Shown in pieces: positions 483 through 59,747 of a stretch of 64,000 nucleotides of DNA. The notes below the pieces were generated by a model that ran no database searches, was not told where the DNA came from, and saw only the letters and a list, made by a program, of their open reading frames with translations. Each line of letters begins with the position of its first letter. Within the stretch, counting starts at the first letter, position 1. The stretch comes from Acidobacteriota bacterium (lineage in GTDB: Bacteria > Acidobacteriota > Thermoanaerobaculia > Gp7-AA8): contig QHVT01000021.1 of assembly GCA_003223645.1 (NCBI GenBank), forward strand, positions 1 through 64,000, read 5' to 3'. Position numbers and translations under genes: made by a program.

Positions 483-859
483 TCGCATGCGCTGAACATT
501 CGCGTCGCGCTCGCCCCGCACGCATCTCTGCTGGCGGACCGACTTCGCGCCCGCCCGTTCGACGTGTATCTTTTCGCCCGGATGCTGTTTCGCAGCAGAA
601 TTCAGAAGTGAGAAACCCGCCCGAGGCCCACGGGCGGAAGTGCTTCTAAATTCTGCATTCTGCATTCTGCCTTCTGCATTCCGGACCGGTGCGCGTTCCA
701 GTTCGTTCAAGCGCCGCACACGCCATCCCACCGCACACGCTCGTCCCCCTTTCGGCGGCCGAGGGCGGCCGCCGCTCCACAGGTTCTGATTCGCATCGGA
801 GCGTTTCCGCGCAGACGAAGAGGGGCACGGGCGCGGGCCCGGATTTGCAACCGCGCAAC
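483..859. other. Gene-free stretch with a 7-nt repeat hairpin
   Basis: This 377-bp stretch separates the transposase from the DinB-like gene. The only structure I see is a hairpin at 593-682: a left arm GCAGAATTCAGAAGTGAGAA, an inner GC-rich inverted repeat (CCCGCCCG/CGGGCGG) and a right side with four tandem TTCTGCN heptamers. Around 758-775 there is a GGCGGCCGCCGCTCCAC segment matching the arm of the palindrome at 40964-41034. Short reading frames here have no protein-like composition. Confidence 0.6.
593..682. repeat. GCAGAAG/TTCTGCN heptamer hairpin, partial copy
   Basis: Tandem TTCTGCA/TTCTGCC heptamers at 651-680 face a short inverted GCAGAA-rich arm at 595-614. The unit is the same as in the three larger elements at 38874-38985, 42741-42848 and 58806-58916, but the left arm is eroded to about one unit. 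Confidence 0.6.
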
Positions 860-3614: not shown

Positions 3615-3776
3615 GGGGAAAGTTTAGTTGGTGGCGGTGATGGGTGCCGGGTGCGGGATGAGTGCTGGGTGCTGGGTGCTGGGTGCTGAGTGCCGGATGG
3701 GTGCTGGGTGCTGGGTGCTGAGTACCGGGTCGTGGTTACGCAGCACCCAGCACTCAGCACTCAGCACCCAGCACCT
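3615..3776. repeat. GTGCTGG/GTGCTGA heptamer hairpin, copy 1
   Basis: Tandem heptamers (GTGCTGG, GTGCTGA, GTGCCGG variants) run from about 3660 to 3723. After a short GGTTACGCA loop they are repeated inverted as CAGCACC/CAGCACT units up to 3776, right against the LRR gene stop. A flank of about 30 bp (GGGGAAAGTTTAGTTGGTG) and the loop are also conserved in the second copy at 41538-41658, so this is a dispersed element rather than chance slippage. Confidence 0.85.
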
Positions 3777-8395: not shown

Positions 8396-8537
8396 TGGAT
8401 GGCAGATGGCGGATGGCAGATGGCGGATGGCAGATGGCGGATGGCAGATGGCGGATGGCAGATGGCGGATGGCAGATGGCGGATGGCGGATGGCGAAAAG
8501 GCGGCTTCGCTGTTGCCATCCGCCATCCGCCATCCAC
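8396..8537. repeat. GGCGGAT/GGCAGAT heptamer hairpin
   Basis: About fourteen heptamers alternating GGCAGAT and GGCGGAT run from 8396 to about 8494. After a short non-repeated loop (AAAAGGCGGCTTCGCTGTTG) they come back inverted as CCATCCGCCATCCGCCATCC at 8515-8534. The long left arm and short right arm differ in copy number. The element ends 2 bp before the stop codon of the TPR gene. Confidence 0.85.
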
Positions 8538-36274: not shown

Positions 36275-38863
36275 TTAGGACTCCAGCTTTTGCTTCAACT
36301 CGTACAGCGCGTTCAGCGCTTCGCGCGGCGCGAGGGTGTCGAGGTCGAGCGTGCGCAGCGCGTCGATGACGCTCTGCTCTTTCGAGTTGAAGAGGCCGAG
36401 CTGGGAGGTCGCCGGACGCGGACCGCGGCGGCGCGTTTCTTCGACGACGTCGCGTTCCTTGCGCTCCAGCGTGTCGAGGATCTCCCGCGCGCGCTCGATC
36501 ACGGTCGTCGGAATGCCGGCGAGCTTCGCGACCTGGATGCCGTAGCTCTTGTCGGCCGCGCCTTCGACGACTTTGCGCAGGAAGATGATCTGCTCGTTCC
36601 ACTCTTTCACCGCGACGTTGGCGTTGGCGACGCGCGGTTTGGTCTTCGCGAGGTCGGTCACCTCGTGGTAGTGCGTGGCGAAGAGCGTGATGCCGCTGCG
36701 CGCGGGATTGTCGTGGAGAAACTCGATGATGGCCCAGGCCAGCGAGAGGCCGTCGAACGTCGCGGTGCCGCGTCCGACTTCGTCGAGGATGATGAGCGAG
36801 CGGTCGGTGGCGTTGTTGAGGATGTTCGCGGTCTCGTGCATCTCGACCATGAACGTCGACTCGCCGCGCGCGAGCTGATCGGACGCTCCCACGCGCGTGA
36901 AGATGCGGTCGCAAATGCCGAGGCGCGCTTTGGCGGCGGGAACGAACGAGCCGGCCTGATTGAGAAGGACGATGAGCGCTACCTGGCGGAGATACGTTGA
37001 CTTTCCGCCCATGTTCGGGCCGGTGATGATCTGGATGCCGTTGCGGTCGCGCTGGATGTTCGTGTGGTTGGGGATGAAGCGTTCGGTGGTCAGCTGCTCG
37101 ATGACCGGATGGCGTCCGTCTTCGATGCAGATCTCGGCGTCCTCGGAGAGCGTCGCGCGGACGTAGCGGTTGCGCGCGGCGATCGTCGCCAGCGACGCGA
37201 TCGCGTCGACGTCGCCGACGGCGCGCGCGGTCGCGAGGATCGCCGGACTCGCGGCCGCGATTTTCCCGAGGAGCTCGTCGTACAGGCGGAGCTCGATCGC
37301 GATCGCCTTCTCCTCGGCGCCGACGATTTTTTCTTCGAGCTCTTTGAGATCGGGCGTGATGAAGCGCTCCGCGTTGGTGAGCGTCTGCTTGCGGATGTAG
37401 TCGGACGGCGCCTTGGAGAGGTTCGACTTCGAGATCTCGATGTAGTAGCCGAAGACGGAGTTGTAGCGGACTTTCAGCGACGAGATGCCGGTGCGCTCGC
37501 GCTCGCGCGTCTCGATGTCGACGAGGATCGACTTCGAGTCGCGCGCGACTCTTCGCAGCTGGTCGAGCTCGTGATCGACGCCGGCGAGAATGACGTTGCC
37601 GTCGCGGAGCGACATCGACGGCTCGGGTTGAATGGTCTGCGCGACAAGCGCTACGACATCGGCGCACGGATCGAGCGCGGCGCGCATCGATTTCAGCAGC
37701 GGTCCCTGCAGCGGCTGCATCACGGCGCGCAGCTCGTCGGTCACAAGGAGCGACTCGGCGAGGGCGAGGCATTCGCGCGGCGTCGCGGTGCGCAGCGTGA
37801 TGCGTGACGCGAGCCGCTCGAGGTCGGCGATTTTCTGGAGGCGCGCCGTCATCTGCTCGAGGATCACGCGCGAGCGCGTCAGCTCGTCGACGGCGTCGTG
37901 GCGCTCGAAGATCGCCTCGCGCGATTTGAGCGGCCGCGTGATCCAGCGGCGCAGCGTGCGCGTCCCCATCGCCGATTTTGTGGCGTTGACGACGCTCCAG
38001 AGCGTCGCGCGCGGGTGCGATGCGTCGCGCGAGTCGAGCACTTCGAGATTGCCGAGCGTGGCCGCGTCGAGCTGGAGATAGTCGGCGTCGTTATCGACGC
38101 GCAGTGCCGTGACGTGGTCGAGCGGCTTCTTGTGGCTCGCGCTGGCGTAGCGCAGCGCGCCGCCGGCCGCGCCGACGCGGATGTCGTCGTCCTCGAGGCC
38201 GAAGCCGCGCAGCGACTGCGTGCCGAAATGTTTGGCGAGGTAGTCGTGCTGCGACTCGAAGAGCGACGGCTCGACCGACGTCGTCGGGATGGGGACAGGG
38301 AGGATTGCCTGTCCTCCACTCGGGATCACGGCTTCGCGGGGGGCGAAGCGGGCGACGTCGTCGAAGAGGCGCGCGTCATCGAAGGAGCGATAGCTGGTGA
38401 CGAAGAAGTCGCCGGTCGAGACGTCGAGATAGGCCGCGCCCACCTTCGATCCGTTGGGAACGAGGGCGAGGAGATAGCAGCTCTCGCGCTCGACGATCGA
38501 GCTCTCGGTCGCCGTGCCGGGCGTCACGACGCGCACGACCTCGCGCTTCACGAGTCCTTTCGCCAGCGCCGCGTCCTCGACCTGCTCGCAGATCGCGACG
38601 CGCAGCCCCATGCGAATCAGCTTGGCGATGTACGAGTCGGCCGAGTGATACGGCACGCCGCACATCGGCGCCTCGTGCTCCTGCCCCTTGTTGCGCGCGG
38701 TGAGCACGAGATCGAGGAGCGGCGCGGCCTTCTCCGCGTCCTCGAAGAACATCTCGTAGAAATCGCCGAGGCGGTAGAAAAGGATGGCGTCGGGAACCGT
38801 GCGCTTGATCTCGAAATACTGCTCGAGCATCGGGGTGAGCTTGGTGATGGGGCGGGACACCAT
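36275..38863 (-). CDS. mutS: DNA mismatch repair protein MutS
   Basis: An 862-residue MutS1 protein from the ATG at 38861-38863. The mismatch-reading motif FYRLGDFYEMF lies at ~29-39 (the Phe-x-Glu that stacks on the mispair). A connector follows at ~130-260, then core and clamp, then the ATPase with TGPNMGGKSTYLRQVA (Walker A, ~616) and DEVGRGTATFDG (Walker B, ~695). It binds mismatches and recruits MutL; no mutL is seen here. One oddity: residues ~183-191 (SGGQAILPV) are encoded by a palindromic repeat also found between genes at 45622-45647. They lie in the connector region and do not break the frame. Confidence 0.97.
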   Translation of the reverse strand: MVSRPITKLTPMLEQYFEIKRTVPDAILFYRLGDFYEMFFEDAEKAAPLLDLVLTARNKGQEHEAPMCGVPYHSADSYIAKLIRMGLRVAICEQVEDAALAKGLVKREVVRVVTPGTATESSIVERESCYLLALVPNGSKVGAAYLDVSTGDFFVTSYRSFDDARLFDDVARFAPREAVIPSGGQAILPVPIPTTSVEPSLFESQHDYLAKHFGTQSLRGFGLEDDDIRVGAAGGALRYASASHKKPLDHVTALRVDNDADYLQLDAATLGNLEVLDSRDASHPRATLWSVVNATKSAMGTRTLRRWITRPLKSREAIFERHDAVDELTRSRVILEQMTARLQKIADLERLASRITLRTATPRECLALAESLLVTDELRAVMQPLQGPLLKSMRAALDPCADVVALVAQTIQPEPSMSLRDGNVILAGVDHELDQLRRVARDSKSILVDIETRERERTGISSLKVRYNSVFGYYIEISKSNLSKAPSDYIRKQTLTNAERFITPDLKELEEKIVGAEEKAIAIELRLYDELLGKIAAASPAILATARAVGDVDAIASLATIAARNRYVRATLSEDAEICIEDGRHPVIEQLTTERFIPNHTNIQRDRNGIQIITGPNMGGKSTYLRQVALIVLLNQAGSFVPAAKARLGICDRIFTRVGASDQLARGESTFMVEMHETANILNNATDRSLIILDEVGRGTATFDGLSLAWAIIEFLHDNPARSGITLFATHYHEVTDLAKTKPRVANANVAVKEWNEQIIFLRKVVEGAADKSYGIQVAKLAGIPTTVIERAREILDTLERKERDVVEETRRRGPRPATSQLGLFNSKEQSVIDALRTLDLDTLAPREALNALYELKQKLES
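38292..38317. repeat. Palindromic repeat inside mutS
   Basis: The 26-bp segment GGACAGGGAGGATTGCCTGT+CCTCCA differs at one position from the intergenic copy at 45622-45647. It is a short hairpin (GGACAGGCA/TGCCTGTCC type) lying in frame within the mutS connector domain. Confidence 0.8.
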
Positions 38864-38873
38864 TGCATTTTAG

Positions 38874-38985
38874 ATGAACGCAGAACGCAGAAGGCAGAAG
38901 GCAGAAGGCAGAAATGAGAAACGAATCGTGACGCGAGTCTCAGTTCTTACTTCTGCCTTCTGCTTTCTGCCTTCTGCCTTCATCC
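38874..38985. repeat. GCAGAAG heptamer hairpin, copy A
   Basis: Five GCAGAAN-type heptamers (38881-38912) are followed by a ~35-nt loop and by about five inverted TTCTGCC/TTCTGCT heptamers (38950-38984). A TTCTTAC/ATGAGAA pair extends the stem, as in copies B and C. Its right arm also codes for the C-terminal tail of the gene at 38940-39311. Confidence 0.85.
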
Positions 38986-39323: not shown

Positions 39324-39584
39324 CGGACCGTGACGCGCGGCGAGATCGAAGAGAAGCTGGTGGCGATCGTCCAGCAGGAGAAAAACCTCTCCGCGGACCT
39401 CATCAAGCCCGAGACGCCGCTGGCCGAGGCGGGGATCGACTCGCTCGACTCGCTGACGATCCTGTTTGCCATCGAAGAGCAGTTCCACATCTCCATTCCC
39501 GACGATCGCGCGCGCGCCATCACCACGTTCGGGGACCTCATCGACATCGTTCAGGAGCTCGCGCCGCCTGCGGCGGCGGATTGA
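39318..39584 (+). CDS. Acyl carrier protein
   Basis: An 88-residue protein if begun at the ATG at 39318; the GTG at 39330 gives 84 residues. The motif EAGIDSLDSLTILFAIEEQFHISIPD holds the DSL serine to which phosphopantetheine is attached. The acidic helix II (TILFAIEEQFHI) is the usual enzyme-docking surface. It is followed by a ketosynthase gene, so the pair probably extends a fatty-acid or related acyl chain separate from the main fatty-acid gene set. The last residues APPAAAD are encoded in a 76-bp duplicated segment. Confidence 0.9.
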   Translation: MIRTVTRGEIEEKLVAIVQQEKNLSADLIKPETPLAEAGIDSLDSLTILFAIEEQFHISIPDDRARAITTFGDLIDIVQELAPPAAAD

Positions 39585-39740
39585 GGATTGAGAATTGAGG
39601 ATTGAGGAAAAAGACACGAGGTCAGCCCCTTCGCTTGCGCCGCCTGCGGCGGCGGATTGAGGATTGAGAATTGAGGATTGAGGAAAAAGACACGAGGTCA
39701 GCCCCTTCCTCAATCCTCAATCCTCAATCCTCAATCCACG
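39561..39740. repeat. GGATTGA heptamer hairpin with a 76-bp tandem duplication
   Basis: GCGCCGCCTGCGGCGGCGGA and the following GGATTGA/GAATTGA heptamers occur twice, at 39561-39636 and from 39637, a direct repeat with a 76-bp period. The first copy includes the end of the acyl carrier protein gene. After a CACGAGGTCAGCCCCTTC spacer, inverted CAATCCT heptamers (39710-39737) complete the hairpin, immediately before the ketosynthase core. Confidence 0.85.
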
Positions 39741-41537: not shown

Positions 41538-41658
41538 GAGGGGAAAGTTTAGTCGGTGCCGGTGATGAGTGCTGAGTGAGTGCTGGGTGCTGAGTGCTGA
41601 GTGGCGGGTCTTGGTTACGCAGCACCCAGCACCCAGCACCCAGCACTCAGCACTGTCA
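41538..41658. repeat. GTGCTGG/GTGCTGA heptamer hairpin, copy 2
   Basis: This copy shares the left flank (GGGGAAAGTTTAGTCGGTGC), the direct GTGCTGA/GTGCTGG heptamers, the loop (CTTGGTTACGCAGCACCC) and the inverted CAGCACC units with copy 1 at 3615-3776. It lies between the STAS gene and the asparaginase gene. A GCCATCCGC-type stretch follows at 41669-41702, akin to the unit of the hairpin at 8396-8537. Confidence 0.85.
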
Positions 41659-41718: not shown

Positions 41719-42744
41719 ATGTCCGTTCGTCTCACGAACGTCTATCGCGGGTCGCGCGTGGAGTCGTTTCACTCCGGATCGATTGCGGTCGTCGACTCGC
41801 GCGGGCGTTTGCTCGCGTGCGCGGGGGATCCGGCGACAGTCGCGTGTCTGCGTTCGTCGGCGAAGCCGTTTCAGGCGATTCCGCTTCTCGAATACGGCGG
41901 CGCGGAGGAGTTCGAGCTGACGGGAGAAGAGATCGCGCTGACGTGCGCGTCGCACGGCGGGGAGCCGGTGCACATCGCGACGGCGGCGGCGCTCCTGCGC
42001 AAGGGCGAGTTCGATGAAGAGGATCTCCTCTGCGGCGCGCACATGCCGTACGACGAGAAGTCGGCCGCGGAGCTGCGCGCGAGCGGCGAGGCGCCGTCGC
42101 CGCTGCACAACAACTGCTCGGGCAAACATGCCGGCATGCTCCTGGCGTCGCAGGTGATGGATGTGACGTCGGTGCGCTACATCGATCCCGCACATCCGCT
42201 GCAGGTGCTGATGCGCTCAACGCTCGCCGACTTCGCGGGCGTGGACGCGGACGAGATCCCGATCGCCATCGACGGATGCGGCGTTCCGGCGTTCTACCTC
42301 TCCCTCTATCGCGCCGCCCTCGCCTACGCGCGACTCCTCTCGCCGGCCGAGCGTTACGCGGAGAGCGCCTCGACCGTCGTAGAAGCGATGACGTCGTTTC
42401 CGTACTACGTCGCCGGCAGCTGGAGCATGACCACGCCGCTCCTCGCCGCGTTCAACGGCGAGCTTGTCGCCAAAGAAGGCGCCGAGGGCTTTTATGCGAT
42501 GGCGTTGAACAGCGCGTTGACCCCGCGCCTCGCCGTCGATGATGATTGCACCGTCGGCATCGCGCTGAAGATCGACGACGGATCGATGGACCGCGGACGC
42601 AATCCCGTGGTGCTTCGATTGTTGGAGATGCTGGGAGTCGAGCTGGATGAGACGCTGTTGCCGTACAAGCAGTGGGAACTTCGGAATCACAGCGGAACCG
42701 TAGTCGGAGAGGTGCAGGCGCAGTTTTCTTTGGAGGTCTTATGA
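41719..42744 (+). CDS. L-asparaginase II (AnsA/ReAII family)
   Basis: A 341-residue protein from the ATG at 41719. Family signatures are RSSAKPFQAIPLLEYGG at ~49, CASHGGEPVH at ~79 and NNCSGKHAGML at ~133, the thermolabile Rhizobium-type asparaginase unrelated to E. coli AnsB. It turns asparagine into aspartate and ammonia, as a cytosolic nitrogen-scavenging step. No signal peptide. Its stop overlaps the start of the rhodanese gene (ATGA at 42741-42744), so the two are translated together. Confidence 0.9.
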   Translation: MSVRLTNVYRGSRVESFHSGSIAVVDSRGRLLACAGDPATVACLRSSAKPFQAIPLLEYGGAEEFELTGEEIALTCASHGGEPVHIATAAALLRKGEFDEEDLLCGAHMPYDEKSAAELRASGEAPSPLHNNCSGKHAGMLLASQVMDVTSVRYIDPAHPLQVLMRSTLADFAGVDADEIPIAIDGCGVPAFYLSLYRAALAYARLLSPAERYAESASTVVEAMTSFPYYVAGSWSMTTPLLAAFNGELVAKEGAEGFYAMALNSALTPRLAVDDDCTVGIALKIDDGSMDRGRNPVVLRLLEMLGVELDETLLPYKQWELRNHSGTVVGEVQAQFSLEVL

Positions 42745-42848
42745 AGGCAGAAGGCAGAAGGCAGAAGGCAGAAGTAAGAAAGCGCACGTGGCGAGAGGCA
42801 GCTTCTTACTTCTGCCTTCTGCCTTCTGCCTTCTGCCTTCTGCTTTTC
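42741..42848. repeat. GCAGAAG heptamer hairpin, copy B (translated)
   Basis: Four direct GCAGAAG units (42745-42773), an AGTAAGAA/TTCTTACTT extension, a ~30-nt loop and five inverted TTCTGCC units (42812-42846). The whole element lies in frame at the 5' end of the rhodanese gene. Confidence 0.88.
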
Positions 42849-43217
42849 GGATGTAAGACCGTCGGCGTCTCCACCACCGCCGGCGGCTTCGCCGAGGTGT
42901 CGCCGACGATCGCGAATGAAATGATCCTCGACTCGCGGCAGGTCGTCATCCTCGACGTCCGTGCCCCGGGGGGGTATCGCGGGGCGGAGGGGCACATCGC
43001 GGGAGCGTTGTCGGTCCCGTTCGAGTCGATCGAGCGGCAGCTGCCGGAGCTCCTGCCGTATCAGAACCAGACCGTGCTCGTGTATGGCGACGGCGATGCC
43101 GACGGCGCGCTGGCGGCGAAGCTGCTTCAGCTCGCCGGCTTCCGCAACGTCGTCCACATCGCCGGCGGAATTCAGGCCTGGATTGAACGGGGATATCGGA
43201 CTGTTAATGCGCAGTGA
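42741..43217 (+). CDS. Rhodanese-domain lipoprotein whose signal peptide is repeat-encoded
   Basis: A 158-residue protein from the ATG at 42741 (GGAGG site, ATGA overlap with the asparaginase stop). The N-terminus MKAEGRRQKAEVRKR is the first arm of the GCAGAAG hairpin, and YFCLLPSAFCLLLFGC is the second arm. Together they form a basic n-region, a hydrophobic core and an LFGC lipobox, so the repeat works as a lipoprotein signal. The rhodanese domain is at ~55-155 (VVILDVRAPGGYRGAEGHIAGALSVP). The usual active-site Cys is replaced: the loop reads LVYGDGDADG, so this is probably a non-catalytic, sulfur- or protein-binding rhodanese. The DsbA-like gene follows after 1 bp. Confidence 0.85.
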   Translation: MKAEGRRQKAEVRKRTWREAASYFCLLPSAFCLLLFGCKTVGVSTTAGGFAEVSPTIANEMILDSRQVVILDVRAPGGYRGAEGHIAGALSVPFESIERQLPELLPYQNQTVLVYGDGDADGALAAKLLQLAGFRNVVHIAGGIQAWIERGYRTVNAQ

Positions 43218-58378: not shown

Positions 58379-58801
58379 ATGCGTTCACGTCTGACCGTCA
58401 CACTTTTCCTGCTCCTCACCGCATGCGGCAAGCTCGAGACGCCGACCGATCCCGGCGTCAGCGGCGAGCCGATCGATCCGACCGCGACGTTCACGCGCGT
58501 CCAAAATGAAGTCTTCACGCCGACGTGCGGCATCGTCGCGTGTCACCATCCGATCGGACAGCAGTCGCAGATGGTGCTGACCGCCGGCCGCGCGTACAAC
58601 GAGACCGTGAACGTCACCAGCGTCGAGATGCCCTCGCTCAAACGCGTCACGCCGGGCGACGTCGCGAACTCGTATCTCTATCGAAAGATCACCGGCGCGG
58701 GAATCACCGGCGACCGCATGCCGCAGACCCTGCCGCCGCTGAGCGACGCGCAGATCGCGCTGATTCGCAATTGGATTCGCCGAGGAGCGCCGAATGATTA
58801 G
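58379..58801 (+). CDS. Cytochrome-c-like lipoprotein
   Basis: A 140-residue protein from the ATG at 58379. Lipoprotein signal MRSRLTVTLFLLLTAC with the lipid Cys at 16. A cytochrome-like domain of the type found in Planctomycete/Acidobacteria proteins follows. The heme-binding motif is CGIVACH, a CX4CH form rather than CXXCH, in VFTPTCGIVACHHPIG. A late GDRMPQTLPPLSDAQIALIRNWIRRGA provides the axial Met and the helix typical of this family. It probably carries electrons at the membrane. The next gene overlaps by 8 bp or starts 5 bp later. Confidence 0.85.
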   Translation: MRSRLTVTLFLLLTACGKLETPTDPGVSGEPIDPTATFTRVQNEVFTPTCGIVACHHPIGQQSQMVLTAGRAYNETVNVTSVEMPSLKRVTPGDVANSYLYRKITGAGITGDRMPQTLPPLSDAQIALIRNWIRRGAPND

Positions 58802-58805
58802 AAAG

Positions 58806-58916
58806 ATGAAGGCAGAAGGCAGAAGGCAGAAGGCAGAAGTAAGAAGTCGCCAACGCGACGGACGCCGCAATCGCTTTCTCACTTCTGCCTTCTGCCTTCT
58901 GCCTTCTGCCTTCGTC
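58806..58916. repeat. GCAGAAG heptamer hairpin, copy C (translated)
   Basis: Four direct GCAGAAG units (58810-58838), a ~35-nt loop and inverted TTCTGCC heptamers (58882-58914). As in copy B the element begins with ATGAAG and is read in frame by the following gene. Confidence 0.88.
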
Positions 58917-59747
58917 TTTTTTCTCACGACAACCTCCGCTCTCGCGCAAAACGCGGATCCCTACAAACCCCTCAATCCTCTCCCCACCGGCGATTGGTTC
59001 CTCTCCCTTCCGAGCGCGACGATGCCCGCGCGCGGAACGTGGGAAGTGAAGTTCACGCATCGTTTCAATCAGTCGCTCGATCAGGGCGGCATCAGCGATC
59101 AGATCCATTCGCTGTTCGGTCTCGATACCAATGCGGACGTCGTCTTCGGTTTGTCGTACGCACTGCGCCGCGATCTGCAACTCTCGCTGATGCGCAGCAA
59201 TACGAACGACACGCTCGAAGGCGCGGCGAAATTCATCCTGTTGCAGCAGGCCGCAACTGTTCCGCTCAGCATTTCGCTGCGCGGCGGCGCCGACTGGCGC
59301 ACGGAAAAGGATCTCGGCGACCGCACGTCGTTGTTCGCGCAGGCGATCCTCACGCATCAGTTCGGACGCAAGGCGGAGCTCTTCGCGATCCCGACGATCG
59401 CCACGAAAGCGGGACGCGCGGTCAGCGGCAATTCGTCGGGCGCGCTGTTCAAGAACGCGTTCAACGTCCCGGTCGGCATCGTCTGGATGTTGAAGCCGGC
59501 GCTGAGCGTTGTCGCGGAGATCACTCCTCCGAATCGCGATCTCCCCGACTCGATGCACGCCGACCTCGGCTGGGCCGTCGGCATCAAGCGACAGATCGGC
59601 GGTCACTGGTTCGAGATTCTCGTGACAAACAGCCAGGCATCGACCGCCGATCAGTACGTCACGTCGACGTTCCAGGGCACGGCGCTCGACTCCGGCGACC
59701 TCCACCTCGGCTTCAACATCGAGAGGCGTTTCGGGCGAAGGAGGTAA
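58806..59747 (+). CDS. DUF5777-like beta-barrel protein with repeat-encoded signal peptide
   Basis: A 313-residue protein from the ATG at 58806; an ATG at 58794 overlapping the previous stop would add four residues. Residues 1-~42 are MKAEGRRQKAEVRSR, then FLTSAFCLLPSAFVFFLTT, ending TSALAQ: a complete signal peptide written by the GCAGAAG hairpin. The mature part is beta-rich (GTWEVKFTHRFNQSL, DVVFGLSYALRRDLQLSLMRS, SGDLHLGFNIERRF) and ends in Phe-x-x-x-x, in line with an outer-membrane barrel of the DUF5777 type. Probably co-expressed with the cytochrome-like lipoprotein. Confidence 0.82.
   Translation: MKAEGRRQKAEVRSRQRDGRRNRFLTSAFCLLPSAFVFFLTTTSALAQNADPYKPLNPLPTGDWFLSLPSATMPARGTWEVKFTHRFNQSLDQGGISDQIHSLFGLDTNADVVFGLSYALRRDLQLSLMRSNTNDTLEGAAKFILLQQAATVPLSISLRGGADWRTEKDLGDRTSLFAQAILTHQFGRKAELFAIPTIATKAGRAVSGNSSGALFKNAFNVPVGIVWMLKPALSVVAEITPPNRDLPDSMHADLGWAVGIKRQIGGHWFEILVTNSQASTADQYVTSTFQGTALDSGDLHLGFNIERRFGRRR

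Follow-up and report, generated by a model that had tools for sequence, protein, structure and literature searches.

A dispersed heptad palindrome with its own start codon, predicted to be translated as a lipoprotein signal peptide or coupled leader in an Acidobacteriota genome

Results

Hairpin copy B and the start of a rhodanese lipoprotein gene

The window is the whole 64,000-nucleotide stretch of DNA that was analyzed, from an Acidobacteriota genome designated G000. Within it, an L-asparaginase II gene (41719–42744, plus strand; Pfam PF06089, 5.8e-104) is followed by a gene for a rhodanese-domain lipoprotein of 158 amino acids plus stop (42741–43217, plus strand), which was assigned from its translation, Pfam PF00581 and orthologues. 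The ATG at 42741–42743 and the asparaginase TGA at 42742–42744 overlap as ATGA, and a GGAGG at 42732–42736 (plus strand), inside the 3′ end of the asparaginase gene, is the candidate Shine-Dalgarno (SD) sequence of this ATG. The N-terminus of the protein reads MKAEGRRQKAEVRKRTWREAASYFCLLPSAFCLLLFG/CKTVG... (slashes mark predicted cleavage sites) and continues in frame into a Rhodanese domain at residues 58–149 (PF00581, 9.5e-16). The hairpin sequence, its frame, the overlap with the asparaginase stop and the domain behind it had all been described in the original prediction, and each was found as described.

The ATG opens a hairpin, copy B, that consists of a direct arm of GCAGAAG heptads (42743–42780), a loop (42781–42802) and an inverted arm of CTTCTGC heptads (42803–42843), all on the plus strand. 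Its stem arms (42743–42780 and 42803–42840) are 38 nt each, 100% complementary and separated by 22 nt. The RNA fold of 42725–42860 was calculated at −87.7 kcal/mol (z = −9.8), and 0 of 200 shuffled sequences were equally stable. When translated, the direct arm gives a basic n-region (MKAEGRRQKAEVRKRTWREAAS) and the inverted arm the hydrophobic core FCLLPSAFCLL within the h-region (YFCLLPSAFCLLLFG), followed by the lipobox LLFG/C38. The predicted signal peptide (residues 1–37; 42741–42851, plus strand) is thus almost wholly encoded by the hairpin. The lipobox Cys follows the repeat after only two complete codons and a fraction of a third. No in-frame start codon was found between the repeat and Cys38; the next one is 53 nt past the repeat, within the mature part.

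This signal shares with an ordinary Sec/SPII lipoprotein signal the basic start, the hydrophobic core and the lipobox (LLFG/C), and differs from it in that both arms of a palindromic repeat encode it. Its n-region is long (22 amino acids), its Cys38 lies slightly past the usual range for lipoproteins, its h-region contains Pro and Ser, and the mean Kyte-Doolittle value of LLPSAFC is 1.76. A stem of −87.7 kcal/mol at the start codon could hinder initiation. At the level of sequence, the reading is supported that copy B, translated from its own ATG, is the predicted 37-residue lipoprotein signal of the rhodanese.

Rhodanese genes were searched in 119 genomes, including G000, and matches were obtained in 32. 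The 15 closest orthologues (14 from the same family and G018 from the same order) were read together with the window protein as 16 aligned rows. The lipobox Cys is invariant in all 16, and the signals of all 15 orthologues end at this same Cys; an orthologue starting past the repeat with a signal of its own, the outcome that the original prediction had set against itself, was not found among them. Ordinary lipoprotein signals occupy the place in 11 of the 15 (for example, MRKLLLVLMILVLAGC and MKRMIAVALIAMAAAGC). The G014 signal contains a hairpin of the same family (MKAEGRRQKAEVTTRNHARFGGALLLSAFCFLPSC), that of G001, which belongs to the same genus, contains the inverted arm only (VTRILKFCLLPSALCLLLSAC), and that of G011 may contain another heptad, an apparent GGCAGCA-type repeat (one arm by the detector). 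G017 has a diverged, heptad-like LLISAICLLPSC that fits LLPSAFCLLPS with two changes; it is unscored by the repeat detector, and a strict count makes it the twelfth ordinary signal. In the rhodanese tree, G000 pairs with G001 (93/91) and G014 groups with G017 and G005 (100/98), with the groups left unordered; the pyrC tree resolves little. The rhodanese insertions of G000 and G014 are likely independent.

Heptad properties and element architecture

The 7-nt unit yields one 7-residue cycle per strand, AEGRRQK or LLPSAFC, and does so in all three frames. Because 7 leaves a remainder of 1 on division by 3 and the heptad is free of stop codons on both strands, every frame of each arm is open whatever the orientation, and the palindrome therefore always reads basic-then-hydrophobic. 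It had been proposed that the palindrome creates a charged-then-hydrophobic peptide by symmetry, and this is what the two strands encode. The proposed 7-residue period with open arms also stands, with the correction that the cycle is the same in all three frames of each strand, whichever the orientation.

The consensus of the element, drawn by eye, is ATGAAG(GCAGAAG)n T[A/G]AGAA-loop-TTCT[T/C]A(CTTCTGC)nCTTCAT. When one mismatch or fewer was allowed, GCAGAAGGCAGAAG matched 21 times in the 64-kb window (0.02 expected). Both canonical ends, ATGAAGG...CCTTCAT, are present in 33 of the 74 full hairpins examined in G000, and such an element consequently carries a start codon at either end. Using cut-offs set so that GCAGAAG passes, 29 of 590 stop-free heptad classes encode a basic and a hydrophobic cycle. 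GCAGAAG, 28th of these 29 by hydrophobicity, is not the optimal heptad in this respect.

Some related structures were also seen. A looser second class of GCAGAAG-like hairpins (L038, L049, L093, L118 and window positions 595–680) has ends near CCGGGAATGCAGAAGG, an inner GAAGC[AC]CGCCC-like stretch, no ATGAAG end and another context. At L079, L094 and L037, a longer middle resembling another dispersed repeat (CGTCATCCTGAG...CTCAGGATGACG) lies between or beside the arms. Hairpins built from other heptads occur in the window at 3636–3775 (GGTGCTG), 8397–8535 (GGATGGC), 39557–39737 (GGATTGA) and 41562–41653 (GTGCTGA); the GGATTGA hairpin adjoins the start of a beta-ketoacyl synthase gene and contains a 76-nt direct duplication.

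Copies A and C in the window

Read from its ATG, copy A (38870–38983, minus strand) is a 37-amino-acid leader ORF whose stop lies 6 nt before the assigned start of mutS (36278–38863, minus strand; Pfam MutS_I to MutS_V). Copy C (58806–58913, plus strand; ATGAAGG...CTTC) belongs to the same family and lies inside the predicted signal peptide of a DUF5777 beta-barrel protein (58794–59747, plus strand; Pfam PF19089, 1.3e-34). This signal reads MIRK, then MKAEGRRQ...FLTSAFCLLPSAF from the element, then VFFLTTTSALA/QNAD; the original prediction had not included the translation of copy C within a signal peptide. Most DUF5777 orthologues in the family begin with MI (for example, MIRR, MIK or MIE), and the window gene keeps ATG ATT AGA AAG (MIRK) before the element and VFFLTTTSALA/Q after it. 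Since the native start and c-region are kept, the element is here an insertion into an existing signal, and copy C shows how use of the element as a signal can begin.

Census of the element in G000

Elements in G000 were searched with three patterns (one set of matches covered 100 of 271 places), and 93 stretches were fetched. These stretches and the window contain at least 105 repeat features, at least 74 of them full hairpins, a census from which elements on later contigs with neither a TGAAG end nor a TAAGAAG-like motif may be missing. Genes were called by a codon-usage score trained on 25 ORFs of the window, in place of a gene finder, and lipobox and SPI-like (AxA-like) cleavage sites were judged by eye.

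At least 71 coding-scored ORFs pass through a repeat, and at least 18 start in an element. Among the matches listed, a lipobox or AxA-like site was recognized by eye directly behind the element in 14 of these 18. They encode a DsbH-like thioredoxin, a solute-binding protein, an unnamed secreted protein, a phosphodiesterase, a DUF547 protein, a sulfatase, a 5′-nucleotidase, a TPR protein, an ABC auxiliary lipoprotein (single arm only), BatD, the DUF5777 protein, the rhodanese and two neighboring proteins, one of them a PQQ dehydrogenase. The remaining four have no clear export signal: a membrane protein (L046), a RecQ-like helicase (L068), and an M16 peptidase and a deoxynucleoside kinase (L089), the last three having possible downstream starts. 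A fifteenth candidate is a cytochrome c lipoprotein whose start is 15 nt upstream of its element. At L121:462–3199, an unnamed lipoprotein-like protein and a PQQ dehydrogenase are neighbors, and each starts with its own GCAGAAG element, with similar flanks before the ATG.

As in MITE- or RPE-type elements, the inverted-repeat copies are many and dispersed. A directly flanking target-site duplication of at least 3 nt was found in 0 of 33 elements with canonical ends, which rules out classical transposition with target duplication. Y1_Tnp matches number one in G000, none in G001 and many in genomes with few GCAGAAG copies. Mobilization of the RAYT type is not favored, as transposase numbers do not track element numbers.

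Frame matching, start signals and putative coupling

Of 146 evaluable element-directions in G000, 62 face a gene; 47 of these 62 have the terminal ATG, and its frame is open in 41. Frames open through the element are thus more frequent in gene-facing directions (41/47) than in other directions (30/46; Fisher p = 0.015), and in six of the 47 gene-facing cases the ORF stops inside the element. Fourteen of the 41 open ORFs are fused in frame to the gene, 25 stop within −8 to +11 nt of the gene start (a range chosen after the distances were seen) and two do neither. An exact ATGA overlap with the gene start is present in 11 of the 25 coupled cases. Of the two unmatched ORFs, one belongs to the cytochrome c lipoprotein gene named above (L102), whose own start was set to unknown by hand, and the other is at L088. 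When elements and flanks were re-paired by shuffling, the mean was 12.9 fused, 9.2 coupled and 19.0 neither; two or fewer unmatched ORFs were reached in 0 of 5000 shuffles, the lowest number being 7. For genes with a start of their own, 25 of 27 leader ORFs stop within the same range (9.5 expected; 0 of 5000 shuffles), which places these stops at or close to the downstream start. Element ORFs are distributed over frames f0/f1/f2 as 15/5/21 (p = 0.008).

Median SD pairing energies were −4.3 kcal/mol for gene-facing ATGs, −1.9 for antisense-facing ATGs and −2.1 for background (p = 2.6e-4, gene- versus antisense-facing, and p = 4e-7). Energies of −4 or lower were obtained for 56% of gene-facing, 24% of antisense-facing and 19% of background positions, the antisense-facing ends being equal to background. 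In 21 of 37 co-directional pairs (p = 0.003), the TGA within the ATGA of the element serves as the upstream gene's stop codon, and in 33 of 37 that stop lies within −4 to +5 nt.

Fused genes belong mostly to exported families, with a cleavage motif, by eye, in 12 of 14. A scan of 24 coupled genes matched 21 to a family and three to none; the 25th is mutS, identified separately. By name, the coupled families are of cytoplasmic or integral-membrane types, or M16 peptidase; no typical lipoprotein or secreted-type name occurs among the 21, unless M16 peptidase is counted. Frame matching, gene-facing SD pairing and the near-absence of mismatches in G000 together suggest that the host gene benefits from, or depends on, the element being translated through.

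Relatives: the same junctions with other heptads

Among 60 genomes searched, the exact pattern was found at 98 places in G000, 17 in G014, 14 in G007 and three or fewer in each of the others. For the comparisons below, orthologues were counted as genomes with a match and a readable upstream region, and for the exported proteins period-7 hairpins were counted within 220 nt before the mature part.

For pyrB-pyrC, 11 of 19 loci were used (L263 is without upstream DNA; L269 and L271–L276 were left out). Seven of the 11 junctions have period-7 hairpins, with units including GCAGAAG, ATGTTGA, GAACGCA, AATGCAG, GTGCTGA and GGGGAGT; G003 has one arm, and no heptad repeat was found at this junction in G004. 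At L261, L259, L262, L265, L266 and L267, the position is kept and the repeat sequence looks as if exchanged between genomes. An ORF that passes through the hairpin and ends on the pyrC ATGA starts at or before the hairpin in G000, G001, G002 and G005; in G008 and G012 such an ORF exists only from starts inside pyrB or inside an arm, and in G009 none reaches the pyrC ATGA. Because several starts were tried per junction, these ORFs are weak evidence either way.

Among 17 BatD orthologues, a hairpin precedes the mature part in seven and a single arm in two more, and no heptad repeat was found there in the other eight. Examples of these signals, with cleavage sites judged by eye, are MQNAERRMKKWARVVAFFILHSAFCVLHSAFA/SEL in G001 and MVRQKSEGRRQKYVAQILLLSAFCLLPLRA/NDI in G007; that of G014 is built from GCAGAAG without the element ATG. 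Period-7 hairpins also precede the unnamed secreted protein in 5 of 14, the solute-binding protein in 3 of 10 (plus one arm) and DUF5777 in 2 of 13 (plus two arms), and were found in 0 of 216 interior control pieces. In some of these cases, among them the solute-binding protein of G012 and BatD of G009, heptads are confined to the n-region or to the DNA upstream, and the hydrophobic core is of other sequence.

Nine gene-facing elements with an ATGA end were found in relatives by pattern. Four are fused (the G014 rhodanese, the G014 solute-binding protein, and the unnamed secreted protein of G007 and G015), one (G016) is a single arm that is in frame yet does not resemble a signal, one is coupled (G014, L281) and three stop well before the gene. 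The ATG end is absent from many G007 and G014 copies, and the element-frame rule is less strict in relatives than in G000. Signals or starts that are built from or contain heptads occur at one gene or more in each of G001, G003, G005, G007, G008, G009, G012, G014 and G015, which rules out an oddity of a single lineage.

A search of related genomes for repeat-built N-termini found, for the rhodanese, the solute-binding protein, DUF5777 and BatD, some orthologues with heptads and others in which none was detected. Of the mobility ascribed to the repeat in the original prediction, the dispersed copies and the filled and empty orthologous sites stand; no target-site duplication and no mobilizing enzyme were identified to go with them.

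Discussion

The sequence, frames and copy number of the element are observed directly, as are frame matching beyond chance, SD enrichment and orthologues with and without the element. We consider it probable (roughly 0.8) that the element is a dispersed, translated palindrome at start codons, where it acts as signal peptide or coupled leader. In operons it often lies at the junction of one stop codon and the next start codon. It brings its own ATG, which would be served by an SD sequence a few nucleotides before it; for copy B this falls within the last codons of the asparaginase gene. Its purine-rich 5′ arm always reads as basic and its pyrimidine-rich 3′ arm as hydrophobic, in either orientation. 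Where the downstream gene needs export and the frame matches, the element would become its signal peptide, as in the rhodanese lipoprotein; elsewhere its ORF would end at the downstream start, as a translated leader to which expression of the gene is coupled. That the element is translated, that its products are exported and lipidated and that leaders are coupled to genes is what we infer from these patterns.

There is about an even chance that elements lie at junctions for reasons of their own (a site preference or an RNA-level role of the hairpin) and that signals and leaders are merely tolerant contexts, working yet never selected. Signal peptides are sequence-permissive, copy C was inserted into an existing signal (MIRK...SALAQ), and in relatives these junctions carry hairpins built from different heptads, in G009 at least without an ORF reaching the gene start. 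Such tolerance is harder to reconcile with frame matching, gene-facing SD sequences and the few mismatched cases in G000, which suggest that translation matters, and with copy B, where almost nothing else could be the signal. It separates origin from use and does not contradict use. A different objection would be that the hairpin is intergenic and untranslated, its in-frame N-terminus being an annotation-like artefact and the true start lying downstream. We regard this as very improbable, even though 25 of the 41 genes behind open element ORFs have a start codon of their own and the fold is very stable. It is rejected for copy B, where no in-frame start precedes the lipobox Cys and the mature Cys is invariant in orthologues, and it is rejected statistically by frame matching at a level reached in 0 of 5000 shuffles and by SD enrichment at gene-facing ATGs only.

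Another account concerns how the copies arise. Heptads may be amplified locally and replaced in place, by slippage and gene conversion and not by a transposing insertion, with each genome homogenizing its heptad at conserved junctions. The different heptads at the same junctions across genomes (pyrB-pyrC, BatD), the absence of target-site duplications from the 33 elements and the Y1 transposase copies that do not track element number (G000, 1; G001, 0) all fit it. It has to contend with the fixed ends and architecture at unrelated sites of G000 (33 of 74 hairpins with both canonical ends) and with several relatives in which no heptad was detected at the orthologous sites, and we consider it possible, on balance rather doubtful.

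The original prediction named no described case of an intergenic repeat acting as a mobile signal peptide. A partial precedent is the Yersinia RU-2/YPAL repeat, which contributes to the predicted signal of YPO1552, a putative exported protein (Delihas 2007, PMC2759123; PMC2229807). It resembles the present element in its small size, intergenic position, inverted repeats and open frame, and in that related proteins have unrelated signals; it differs in being a 168-bp, non-heptad element for which one putative protein is singled out (PMC2759123, PMC2229807). The accessible text is silent on a start codon in the repeat, on frame statistics, on SD enrichment and on coupled leaders. In the present case, by comparison, one genome has at least 14 element-started ORFs with a cleavage motif, and relatives show repeated use. 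Rickettsia palindromic elements (RPE) are described as in-frame insertions in conserved genes, the gmk product being enzymatically active (PMC2229807). They resemble the present element as dispersed palindromic repeats in frame within conserved proteins and differ in not being built from heptads; the accessible text describes nothing on RPE-derived signal peptides (PMC2229807). In Xanthomonas and Nostoc, heptameric repeats form tandem arrays, some inverted, that lie preferably between aligned ORFs. Their closeness to start or stop codons is shared with the present element, from which they differ in being of the G-quadruplex type GGGAATC/GGGGAYT, under-represented in coding regions and, in the accessible text, not described as translated (PMC4692102). 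Heptameric repeats are also described as satellites (PMC6749651). No heptad palindromes acting as signal peptides were recognized in the literature searched, a scope outside which most subscription papers fall. The building or replacing of signal peptides from dispersed repeats has barely been described.

The origin and free evolution of signal peptides is an open question, and here a repeat would supply complete signals, since a palindrome with one purine and one pyrimidine arm is bound by its symmetry to encode a charged peptide followed by a hydrophobic one. For repeats regarded as intergenic, being translated would be a concrete route of survival at start codons. More tentatively, and at somewhat less than an even chance, heptad palindromes may form an N-terminus module that renews itself across the lineage, carries its own start codon and has replaced the signals of conserved exported proteins again and again. 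If so, the cassette would be independent of frame and orientation. The gain or loss of one 7-nt unit would shift the exit frame by one while the cassette stays open, so that slippage could switch a gene from one to another of the states fused, coupled and off, and the signals at fixed genes (BatD, the solute-binding protein and the rhodanese) would turn over by swaps of heptad families.
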